From NCBI RefSeq assembly GCF_020687685.1, contig NZ_JAJEWM010000004.1, forward strand, positions 1 through 64,000: a stretch of 64,000 nucleotides of DNA, given 5' to 3'. Positions 4,932-62,555 of this stretch are shown piece after piece. The notes beneath the pieces were generated by a model. That model was not told the DNA's origin, did no database searches, and saw only the letters and a list, made by a program, of their open reading frames with translations. The position numbers were made by a program, and so were the translations under genes. Source of the DNA: Tessaracoccus sp. OS52. GTDB taxonomy: Bacteria; Actinomycetota; Actinomycetes; Propionibacteriales; Propionibacteriaceae. Positions within the stretch are counted from its first letter, which is position 1. Every line of letters starts with the position of its first letter.

Positions 4932-4940
4932 CCCTTCGCG

Positions 4941-5120
4941 TTGACCAGCGCTCTCGGCGGTTGACCAGCGTTGTTGGCGGTTGACCAGCGTTGTTGGCGG
5001 TTGACCAGCCCTCCGGGCGGTTGACCAGCCCTCCGGGCGGTTGACCAGCGCTCCGGGCGGTTGACCAGCGCTCCGGGCGGTTGACCAGCCCTCCGGGCGG
5101 TTGACCAGCGTTGTTGCTCG
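4941..5120 (+). repeat. Tandem array of nine 20-bp units (TTGACCAGC family)
   Basis: The word TTGACCAGCG/C recurs at exactly 4941, 4961, 4981, 5001, 5021, 5041, 5061, 5081 and 5101, a strict 20-bp period. The second half of each unit varies between CTCTCGGCGG, TTGTTGGCGG and CTCCGGGCGG. The array begins 10 bp after the stop of the SH3/M15 gene and runs into hairpin element 1. There are no unique spacers, so it is not CRISPR. Reading frames through it are repeat artefacts. Confidence 0.95.
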
Positions 5121-5166
5121 GCACCAGCCATAGAAGGCTGGTGGCGACGGATATCGCTGGTCAACC
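5099..5166. repeat. Hairpin element 1, nested inverted repeat at the end of the 20-bp array
   Basis: The outer arms GGTTGACCAGCG (5099-5110) and CGCTGGTCAACC (5155-5166) pair perfectly over 12 bp. The inner arms CACCAGCC (5122-5129) and GGCTGGTG (5136-5143) pair perfectly over 8 bp. Linkers TTGTTGCTCG and GCGACGGATAT join them. The same structure recurs at 6373 and 6565 in the same orientation, but there the tandem array lies on the right instead of the left. Confidence 0.9.
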
Positions 5167-5368
5167 ACTCGGCTATGTGCCGAGATCGTCATCGGGGTGG
5201 CTCCAGTGAAGTGGGGCTTGTCGCGATCGGACCCGGTTGCTCTACAACCGTCCCTTCAATGCACGGGAGCAGAGTCCTCGGCGACGCCAGAACCATGGAA
5301 GCCAGAGTTATCCACAGATATGCAGGGTGCCGTTGTGGTTGGCCCAGATGCTGGGTTGTAGTTCTTTC

Positions 5369-6295
5369 ATGGACCTCACTACGGAAGCGCACCTTCGCTA
5401 CGCAGAACTGATGGCCGGCGGCCTGACCTACTCCGACGTCGTGTCCCGGATGAGACAGGGACAACTCACACGCATCCGACGAGGCATCTACGGAACAGCC
5501 CCGGATCTCACGCCGGAGGAGAGCCACCTCCGGTTGATCCTCGCCACCATGCCCGACGTCCACCCCGGAAACGTGCTCAGTCATGAGTCGGCTGCGCTGT
5601 TGCATGGATTGCCCGTCTCTCGGGATGGGTTGACGCGCGTCACCATGATCCGCCGGACCGCTGGACATACCGACACCTCAGCCACGCTGCGCGTTCGCAA
5701 TACCAGGATTACTGACGAGGAAGTGACCACGATCGACGAATTGCCGGTCACGACTGCCGCAAGGACTGCCATCGACTTGTCCAGGACGCAGCACTACGCA
5801 TGGGGGGTTGCAGCCTGCGACGCCGCCCTGCGGCTTGGTGTTTCCCGCGACGCGCTCAGAGACTCGGTGAAGATGCACCCGCGCCTCAAGGGTCTGCCCA
5901 AGGCTCGGTTGGCGGTCGCATTCGCCGACGGCTTGGCCGAATCGCCCGCAGAATCCATCAGTCGTGTGCAGTTCGCGCGCTATGGCGTTCCGAAACCTGT
6001 GTCGCAGTTCGAGGTGTACGACCAGGGCGGCGAGTGGGTGGCTCGATGCGACTTCGGTTGGCCGGCACTGGGCATCGTGGGCGAATGCGACGGCATGGGC
6101 AAGTACGCACAACTGCTCAGGCCCGGCCAGACGCCCGAGATGGCGATGAAGCAGGAGAAGCGTCGAGAGGAAGCAATCCGTGAGGCGGGATACTGGGTGG
6201 TGCGGTGGGATTGGGATCTCATGTGGAACGGCGACGCACTGGCCCAGCGAATCCTTCGGACCATGCGGAAGCAGGGCGTTCGCGCCTCCGCCTGA
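5369..6295 (+). CDS. AbiEi-like N-terminal plus DUF559/Vsr-like nuclease-fold protein
   Basis: A 308-residue protein of a common actinobacterial type. The N-terminal 90 residues (YSDVVSRMRQGQLTRIRRGIY ... SHESAALLHGLP) match the winged-helix-like domain of AbiEi, the type IV antitoxin. The C-terminal third has RCDFGWPALGIVGECDGMG followed by a Lys/Arg helix and GYWVVRWDWDLMW, the pattern of DUF559/Vsr-like restriction-endonuclease folds (D...ExD). The ATG at 5369 gives a family-typical start. No AbiEii toxin partner lies beside it, so classical toxin-antitoxin function is doubtful. It stands alone between hairpin elements whose tandem arrays point outward, which suggests, without proof, a link between the nuclease and the repeats. 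Confidence 0.7.
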   Translation: MDLTTEAHLRYAELMAGGLTYSDVVSRMRQGQLTRIRRGIYGTAPDLTPEESHLRLILATMPDVHPGNVLSHESAALLHGLPVSRDGLTRVTMIRRTAGHTDTSATLRVRNTRITDEEVTTIDELPVTTAARTAIDLSRTQHYAWGVAACDAALRLGVSRDALRDSVKMHPRLKGLPKARLAVAFADGLAESPAESISRVQFARYGVPKPVSQFEVYDQGGEWVARCDFGWPALGIVGECDGMGKYAQLLRPGQTPEMAMKQEKRREEAIREAGYWVVRWDWDLMWNGDALAQRILRTMRKQGVRASA

Positions 6296-6372
6296 CCCTC
6301 CTCGGTGAGCGGGCGGTGAAACGACGGGTCGCGCTCTGCGAGAAGACCTCTAGGTGAGGTGCTCCCTCCGTT

Positions 6373-6500
6373 TACCAGCGTTGTTGCTGGCGACCAGCCG
6401 TGTACGGCTGGTGTCGACGGATATCGCTGGTCGACGCGCGGGAGGGCTGGTGGACCGACGGGAGGGCTGGTCAACCGGGGGGAGGGCTGGTCGACGCGCG
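6373..6500. repeat. Hairpin element 2 with three 20-bp units
   Basis: The outer arms ACCAGCG (6374-6380) / CGCTGGT (6425-6431) and inner arms ACCAGCC (6393-6399) / GGCTGGT (6406-6412) reproduce element 1. GGAGGGCTGG then repeats at 6441, 6461 and 6481 with a 20-bp period, in the reverse orientation of the array at 4941. It starts about 75 bp after the stop of the AbiEi-like gene. Confidence 0.9.
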
Positions 6501-6564
6501 TGGAGGTTCGGGCGAGGTGGGTGCGGTTGCTTCGTCGGGCGTTCTGGCGTGGGTTTCTCTGGGC

Positions 6565-6776
6565 GTTGACCAGCGTTGTTGCTTGCCACCAGCCTTGTAC
6601 GGCTGGTGTCGACGGTTATCGCTGGTCGACGCGAGGAAGGGCTGGTGAACCGACGGGAGGGCTGGTCGACGCGCGGGAGGGCTGGTCAACCGACGCGATG
6701 GCTGGTCGACGCGCGGGAGGGCTGGTCAACCGACGGGAGGGCTGGTCAACGCGCGGGAGGGCTGGTGAACCGAGGG
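6565..6776. repeat. Hairpin element 3 with seven 20-bp units
   Basis: The outer arms GTTGACCAGCG (6565-6575) / CGCTGGTCGAC (6620-6630) and inner arms CACCAGCC (6587-6594) / GGCTGGTG (6601-6608) form the third copy. GCTGGT then recurs at 6641, 6661, 6681, 6701, 6721, 6741 and 6761. The alternating linkers are CGACGCGCGGGAGG, CAACCGACGGGAGG and variants. The array ends about 110 bp before pgi and may lie in its leader. Confidence 0.92.
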
Positions 6777-6884
6777 AGGCGGCGACGCTCGACGCCCGGC
6801 CAGGGCCGAGCGAGCGGCTGCGCGGAGGCAAGGCTCGTGCCGGTTGGGGGGCCAGGCTGCCCGCAGCCCGGATAGGCTGGCGTC

Positions 6885-42302: not shown

Positions 42303-42340
42303 CCCACGATGGTCTCACGTTCGCTGCCTCGCACGGTTGG

Positions 42341-42470
42341 CCCCCGGCCCCCGGACCGCGGACCCCGGCCCCGGCCCCGGCCCCCGGACCCCGGTCCCGG
42401 CCCCGGCCCCCGGACCCCGGCCCCGGCCCCCGCCCCCGCACCCGGCCCCCCTCCGCCCCGCCTCCGGCGG
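42341..42470. repeat. C-rich/G-rich low-complexity tract with G-quadruplex potential
   Basis: About 130 bp are built almost only of CCCCGG, CCCCCGG and CCGGACC words on the plus strand. The minus strand therefore carries many runs of four or five G separated by two or three bases. It lies just upstream of the leftward methyltransferase start, on its coding strand. Confidence 0.85.
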
Positions 42471-52066: not shown

Positions 52067-52278
52067 TGACCCTGCGTTGGTCGAGTAGGGCGGCGAGTTC
52101 TGCGAGCCTGCAGGCTCTTCGTTGGTCGAGTAGGGCGGCGAGCTCTGCGAGCCCCCGTGTCGAGACCCCGGGCGCCCGCGGCCCAGTTCTTCGTTGGTCG
52201 AGTAGGGCGGCGAGCTCTGCGAGCCCCCGTGTCGAGACCCCCGACACCCTCCAGTCCTTGAAAGTGAGTGAAGCATGA
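52066..52278 (+). repeat. Three dispersed-repeat copies forming an in-frame 70-codon ORF
   Basis: The phrase TTGGTCGAGTAGGGCGGCGA occurs at about 52078, 52122 and 52196, twice followed by GTGTCGAGACCCC, a repeat type widespread in Propionibacteriales. Read from ATG 52066, which overlaps the deacetylase stop (TGATG), it translates as a 70-residue Ser/Ala/Arg-rich peptide with LRWSSRAASSAS three times, and its TGA overlaps the ATG of the ASRT gene (ATGA at 52275). The peptide is probably meaningless, but the frame keeps ribosomes moving between two operon genes. Confidence 0.85.
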
Positions 52279-62376: not shown

Positions 62377-62493
62377 CGCCACCGATCGCCTCACTCGCCA
62401 CCGTTATCGGGGTTCGCCACCGCTGTAGCGGTGGCGCGGGCGCCGACCGGTGGCGCGGGCGCCGACCGGTGGCGAGGGCGCCAACCGGTGGCG
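62377..62493. repeat. Hairpin plus 19-bp tandem repeat cluster, CGCCACCG family
   Basis: The word CGCCACCG occurs at 62377, 62396 and 62415, then a hairpin CGCCACCGC (62415-62423) / GCGGTGGCG (62428-62436) with loop TGTA, then the reverse word CGGTGGCG at 62448, 62467 and 62486. The period is 19 bp on both sides. Linkers are GCGGGCGCCGAC and AGGGCGCCAAC. The architecture mirrors the 20-bp hairpin arrays at 4941-6776 although the word is different. Confidence 0.9.
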
Positions 62494-62555
62494 AGGACAA
62501 GCGAAGGGGCCGGGCTTACGCCCGACCCCGTAGCCCCGCTCGAGCTTCCAGGAGC

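Follow-up and report, generated by a model that had tools for sequence, protein, structure and literature searches.

Repetitive extragenic palindromic (REP) sequences are ascribed, in the REP literature that we consulted, to one class of enzymes, the REP-associated tyrosine transposases (RAYT, also TnpA-REP), whose gene is described in PMC2817692 as residing between inverted cognate palindromes, with gene-less copies dispersed in the genome and a motif that is specific to the gene and the species. A different group of proteins, the AbiEi antitoxins, are reported in PMC7319586 to bind inverted repeats. Our study concerns a locus in a stretch of 64,000 nucleotides from Tessaracoccus sp. OS52 (contig NZ_JAJEWM010000004.1, positions 1 to 64,000, termed the window), where a single gene at 5369–6295 is accompanied by nested palindromes and tandem arrays of 20-bp units. 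The REP/RAYT-like arrangement around the predicted restriction-fold protein encoded by this gene is real and recurs in three gene sets across the class. On balance, we favor a repeat system that resembles REP/RAYT and is operated by a restriction-fold nuclease; this protein likely binds the scattered copies and would cleave and disseminate them.

Matching repeats around the gene and its homologues

The locus displays the order outward array, palindrome, DnaA-box-like motif, gene, palindrome and outward array. Three nested palindromes (at 5103–5162, 6373–6432 and 6568–6627, contained in features extending over 5100–5165, 6370–6435 and 6565–6630) enclose or adjoin the gene, which is the only one between the first and second copy and which, on the forward strand, starts with an ATG at 5369 and codes for 308 residues up to a stop ending at 6295. 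Within a palindrome, the ACCAGC half-sites are spaced by 19 bp before they recur in inverted form, and in the first copy the arms reach GTTGACC/GGTCAAC; within the arrays the spacing is 20 bp. The first palindrome is oriented opposite to the other two and its array is located on the left, with those of the second and third copy on the right, so that the arrays face outward on both sides. Tandem Repeats Finder places these arrays at 4940–5110, 6426–6506 and 6621–6779, which corresponds to eight units with ACCAGC on the reverse strand (4940–5099) and to three (6436–6495) and seven units (6631–6770) on the forward strand. Since the second palindrome begins with T instead of G, one of its outer pairs is lost. 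A motif-free palindrome detector identified these three copies and one at 62421 in the whole window and no match in three shuffles of it, which shows that the three copies do not result from chance. In single-strand folding, the three 66-nt stretches surpassed all 200 shuffles of each (z-scores of -7.5, -4.7 and -4.1), with the best predicted fold of the second copy differing from the nested one. The original prediction of nested hairpins with outward 20-bp arrays around a single gene is thus confirmed. The likeness of the array to Chi of E. coli, GCTGGTGG, is regarded as a coincidence, as the arrays mostly continue with different letters.

The generality of this arrangement is reflected in a comparison of the best local match between the upstream and downstream 350 nt of the same gene with matches between flanks of different genes, scored in the homologue sets irrespective of their relative orientation. 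In a first set of 32 genes (the window gene, 29 other loci from a homologue search and two further paralogues of the same genome, G000), 25 scored above 21.0, the 99th percentile of 992 cross pairs, with a median of 38 versus a cross mean of 11.3. Scores of 21 or more were found neither in 27 loci of the phosphoglucose isomerase gene pgi (highest 13, after exclusion of three from 30 loci because of their length) nor in 56 random windows (highest 19). A second set, fetched after the hypothesis had been framed and containing some flanks cut by contig ends, reached this value in five of six strong homologues from the genus and 22 of 25 at the order level (together 27/31), and in 10 of 29 weak homologues from the genus, with its cross pairs showing a 99th percentile of 16.6 and a maximum of 21 (886 sampled pairs). 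At the class level, 30 loci were returned, of which seven had already been tested and 23 were taken, with one of them dropped for a cut flank. The cross pairs of this third set are high (99th percentile 127) because it contains near relatives; judged instead by the value used for the first set, 20 of 22 genes qualified. A co-occurrence of hairpins with the protein family above chance, which had been proposed as a check, is therefore strongly positive when judged by architecture.

Most close homologues thus repeat matching palindromes on both sides, usually with letters of their own, which makes an action of the protein on its repeats likely. The three paralogues in G000 carry three different motifs, and 29 homologue loci (L038–L066) contain at most two ACCAGC or GCTGGT words per 80 bp. 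A search based on the letters ACCAGC had for this reason made the gene look unrelated to the repeat, an impression that proved wrong since the homologues share the architecture with other letters.

In the first set, the 230 nt that precede the gene contain the motif TCCACAG, mostly inside TTNTCCACAG, in 28 of 32 cases and the 230 nt that follow it in none of 32; judged by eye, the motif is positioned between palindrome and start codon. In the second set, it is found within 350 nt at 6/6 strong and 10/29 weak genus homologues and at 20/25 order-level loci, and the class-level set has it at 13/23 loci. In the window, the DnaA-box-like motif TTATCCACAG occupies 5308–5317 on the forward strand and is kept upstream of most homologues. 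We take TTATCCACA and TTGTCCACA to be DnaA boxes.

At two class-level loci from two genomes of one genus (L316 and L323), a shared neighbor gene is located downstream of the element gene in the former and upstream in the latter, and the unit thus occupies one intergenic slot in opposite orientations, with the outer ends AATGATCACGT and ACGTGATCATT resembling terminal inverted repeats.

Dispersal and turnover of the palindromes

The ACCAGC repeat is not confined to the gene. Its 122 BLAST matches in G000 form 26 clusters, two of them in the window, according to our own grouping, from which three short matches with E-values of 0.03 or more were excluded. The pattern ACCAGC N12-14 ACCAGC N6-10 GCTGGT occurs 57 times in this genome, mostly distant from the gene. 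In the 24 clusters outside the window, a palindrome is accompanied by a 20-bp array, usually to one side of it, and the combination is often repeated in tandem with a spacer that is specific to the locus. By open reading frame heuristics the clusters are mostly intergenic, with several crossed by spurious frames, and many are found directly 3' of stop codons, with no clear excess of arrays facing gene 3' ends by eye, where no count was made. An alignment of 40 copies, selected by us from the 57, shows four half-sites that are invariant except for one base in one copy and linkers that vary. The conserved feature is the spacing of the half-sites and not base pairing as such.

Among 39 genomes of the genus, ACCAGC palindromes are found 57 times in G000, 25 times in T. 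bendigoensis (G011) and once in G017. A common flanking gene as source of the enzyme was rejected, since between the clusters of G000 and T. bendigoensis just common families recur (ABC, LacI-type and oxidoreductases), besides one orthologous pair and a family of secreted proteins. The latter, secreted-looking and characterized by VYTTPGxHxVNGRQWxT, is encoded near clusters in both species (L090 and L093 in G000; L136, L138, L142 and L147 in T. bendigoensis). In both species, a cluster is likewise close to the orthologous pair (L094 and L142, 53% identical), which perhaps marks a shared site. T. bendigoensis also contains a second type of array with GCTGGT words, composed of TGAGCCGGGCTGG units and devoid of a palindrome (L140:2544–2663).

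Dispersal extends to other motifs, as found with a single query of eight joined palindromes that was searched against eight genomes. It returned 52 matches in G034, 47 in G021, 41 in G052, 39 in G023, 36 in G053, 30 in G004, 11 in G000 (second paralogue) and 7 in G025. Of the 108 matches listed, 107 are located to at least 80% within the segment from that genome's own gene, with the remaining one being the own flank of G052 (71%). They correspond to at least 18, 22, 18, 10, 18, 16, 5 and 1 distinct places in the same order of genomes. Eight motif families are thus dispersed in their own genomes, which are the ACCAGC family, six at 10 or more places and one at five.

The palindromes also turn over between close relatives. 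In a comparison of G004 with G002 and G005, whose gene loci are 96.6% and 90.9% identical, we sampled eight of 14 fetched G004 sites, seven of which had both flanks in both relatives and the eighth one flank. The palindrome is present in all three genomes at S3 and S6, in G004 and G002 at S1 and S2, in G004 and G005 at S7 and S8, and in G004 only at S5, and single palindromes were consequently gained or lost between sister species at five of seven sites. By eye, its orientation at S2 differs between G004 and G002, G002 retains array units but no palindrome at S8, and it carries about 800 bp of other sequence at S7. The dispersed cognate copies and their presence or absence between sister species increase the likeness to REP/RAYT systems and, together with the matching flanks, support the REP/RAYT-type arrangement with a restriction-fold protein that had been suggested from the window.

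The locus in G026 is orthologous to the one in the window, with a gene encoding an SH3-domain protein, a homologue at about 59% and pgi at about 91%. It lacks an ACCAGC cluster and instead contains, in the right gap, a nested palindrome of another sequence (19-nt spacing) and, by eye, one in the left gap as well; two more copies of this palindrome are located elsewhere in G026. The motif-free detector found nested palindromes at 11 of 19 genus loci and one of 10 order-level loci. It gave no match at the two remaining paralogues of G000, at 28 pgi loci or in 112 kb of sequence shuffled five times. A second setting raised the genus total to 13 of 19 (union of both settings). Outside homologue loci, and in addition to the G026 copy already detected or its relatives, it flagged one palindrome at a distance of 1.3 kb from pgi (L156), one within the coding sequence of pgi (L178) and a copy of the G026 family (L181). 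At nine other loci (L153, L157, L158, L159, L166, L169, L170, L174 and L178), the SH3 gene directly precedes pgi by eye. These loci without insert correspond to an unoccupied site of the complete unit. Upstream of pgi in G024 (L168), where G000 and G026 carry the gene, an array of GGTTCGCCTGCC words flips to GGCAGGCGAACC; this genome has weak homologues only and the array may be a relic.

Properties of the encoded protein

By prediction, the protein combines two parts, a DNA-binding half of the AbiEi type and a nuclease that is homing-endonuclease/Vsr-like. In its structural model, the N-terminal half adopts the fold of AbiEi antitoxins (6y8q, 1zel) and the C-terminal domain most closely resembles the homing endonuclease I-Bth0305I, with the predicted fold and residues of an EDxHD/Vsr-like catalytic domain, and the nuclease residues are conserved among homologues. 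The initial assignment as a restriction-fold, AbiEi-like protein therefore agrees with the model, as does the proposed lack of a toxin partner with the neighboring genes, which encode the SH3-domain protein on the left and phosphoglucose isomerase on the right, so that no AbiEii (DUF1814) toxin is adjacent. A search of PDB sequences with the family profile found nothing significant. A transposase fold of known kind is absent from the one protein between the repeats, a result that covers this protein and not further transposase families in the rest of the genome, and neither HUH nor DDE transposases appeared among the 50 matches listed, which does not exclude any of them. At E-values of 1e-20 or better, the family is present in 106 of 148 sampled genomes of the class, and is at best labeled as an orphan AbiEi antitoxin or as DUF559. 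The ratio of nonsynonymous to synonymous substitution rates in two intact gene pairs is 0.136 (with just seven differences) and 0.125.

Further features of the window

The window holds a second family of palindromes, with GCCACC half-sites, in an intergenic copy at 62381–62497 that belongs to the family of the third G000 paralogue (C1:1510463, L082) and whose match score of 38.5 compares to values of at most 13.5 in 60 random stretches of the window. Tandem Repeats Finder detected additional arrays at 42339–42450 and 52125–52236 (GGCCCCC-type units; 34-bp units). A search of the window for RNA families returned tRNA only.

Proposed mechanism and alternative explanations

In the mechanism that we consider, successive protein molecules would use their winged helix to recognize half-sites along a single face of the DNA. 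Binding of half-sites by this fold is a natural inference from the interaction of AbiEi proteins with inverted promoter repeats described in PMC7319586. The inverted center may bring two nuclease domains together, either on duplex or on extruded cruciform DNA, and the predicted nuclease domain would offer a means of cutting. Cutting followed by repair or replication could then copy, invert or delete palindromes, and the DnaA-box-like motif might couple expression to replication. The protein would in this way bind, cut or move its palindromes.

Several observations weigh against this proposal. Pairing in the stem is, with 83.4%, below the 85.8% of shuffled controls, which leaves a hairpin maintained by covariation unsupported, and the substrate is not necessarily an extruded hairpin. 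T. bendigoensis keeps its ACCAGC palindromes without a close homologue, as a query with the window protein found no match in its genome, and its weak homologue carries a different palindrome. Matching flanks are absent in seven of the 32 genes of the first set (L038, L041 and L061 with scores of 15.5 to 17; L044, L052, L057 and L058 with 10 to 11), in four of 31 in the second (L224, L240, L251 and L253), in two of 22 in the third (L329 and L330) and in 19 of 29 weak genus homologues. One of the contrary outcomes named in the original prediction was found in part, as T. bendigoensis has the palindromes without a close homologue and seven genes of the first set are devoid of matching flanks. The rank correlation between protein and palindrome similarity is weak (rho 0.143 and p 0.048 across the 19 genes from the genus; rho 0.124 and p 0.118 after removal of two of them; rho 0.223 and p 0.14 across nine order-level genes), and the G025 family is found at one place among the matches listed. 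Finally, no clear target-site duplication was detected at the sites read in alignments (S1 in part, with S3 and S5 unaligned), where the divergence of intergenic flanks might conceal short ones.

The alternative that fares best, which we nevertheless regard as unlikely, views the palindromes as operators by which the AbiEi-like protein represses itself and other genes, with the scattered copies serving as decoys or marking a regulon and a separate role left for the nuclease domain. It would account for the conservation of half-sites rather than pairing, and it has a precedent in AbiEi and Rv2827c, which according to PMC7319586 bind 23-bp inverted repeats in their own promoters and repress themselves. 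However, it does not anticipate matching palindromes downstream of the gene or conserved nuclease residues, and the many clusters directly behind stop codons, which are tandem and which appear and vanish between sister species, are unlike conserved operators. Less probable still is a free-standing homing endonuclease gene that cuts gene-less alleles at palindrome-flanked sites and is copied in by repair, leaving the dispersed palindromes as remnants. The predicted resemblance of the nuclease domain to I-Bth0305I would fit this idea, as would the fact that in G000 and G026 the unit separates the SH3 gene from pgi and that both genes are adjacent at the nine other readable loci, judged by eye. 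Yet gene-less palindromes at 10 or more places exceed what gene loss would leave behind, and homing requires an empty site that is cut, whereas the palindromes themselves persist next to the gene. A passive association, in which repeats spread by recombination or slippage in intergenic DNA with the gene merely among them, appears very improbable since, despite the mostly intergenic clusters that are often tandem with their spacers and the orphan family in T. bendigoensis, it leaves unexplained both the gene-specific motifs, three of them within one genome, and the lack of matching flanks at pgi genes and in random windows.

Returning to a repeat system run by the nuclease, we tentatively entertain, at somewhat less than even chance, an extension to the entire class, where fusions of an AbiEi fold with a Vsr/homing-endonuclease-like domain would form a previously unrecorded mobile-repeat system of Actinobacteria and act as REP-type transposases independent of an HUH origin, with each protein reading its own rapidly changing half-site code and copying palindromic arrays through the chromosome in step with replication via the DnaA box. 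A search of the open-access literature found no link between AbiEi/DUF559 proteins and dispersed palindromes. If correct, a second, unrelated enzyme would follow the same genetic logic as RAYT, thus illustrating the convergent evolution of palindrome-spreading systems. It would also account for intergenic repeats in Actinobacteria, assign a role to a family labeled AbiEi or DUF559 and provide many natural pairs of proteins and half-sites to study changes in DNA-binding specificity. In any case, the finding is broader than the window alone could show.

Comparison with known systems

The described locus does not belong to the REP/RAYT systems but shares with them the position of the gene between two inverted cognate palindromes, the gene-less copies throughout the genome and a motif that is peculiar to the gene. 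It differs in the predicted protein, which combines an AbiEi fold and a restriction-type nuclease domain instead of a Y1 HUH transposase, in the organization of half-sites in 20-bp arrays and in the absence of a GTAG/GTGG head, with GTTG or GTTT found as the foot of the palindromes in the window. Its 57 copies compare to more than 100 per genome in REP/RAYT systems. A RAYT as the responsible enzyme was rejected given this different predicted fold and because Y1_Tnp (PF01797, IS200/IS605-like) was found in none of 39 genus genomes, in a search whose control detected the domain in five of 14 named genomes including E. coli. With the AbiE type IV toxin-antitoxin systems (AbiEi, Rv2827c), the protein shares the predicted antitoxin fold of its N-terminal half, but there is no adjacent AbiEii toxin, a nuclease domain is added and palindromes are found on both sides and dispersed. 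In contrast to Vsr and the EDxHD homing endonuclease I-Bth0305I, the gene is not located in an intron, intein or conserved gene but in the intergenic region from the SH3 gene to pgi, and unlike I-Bth0305I its product carries an AbiEi half and is associated with dispersed palindromes. Finally, the matching repeats around one gene and the small gene-less copies are reminiscent of insertion sequences and miniature inverted-repeat transposable elements, from which the unit is distinguished by lacking a known transposase fold; at the sites read, no target-site duplication was seen, although short ones may have escaped notice.
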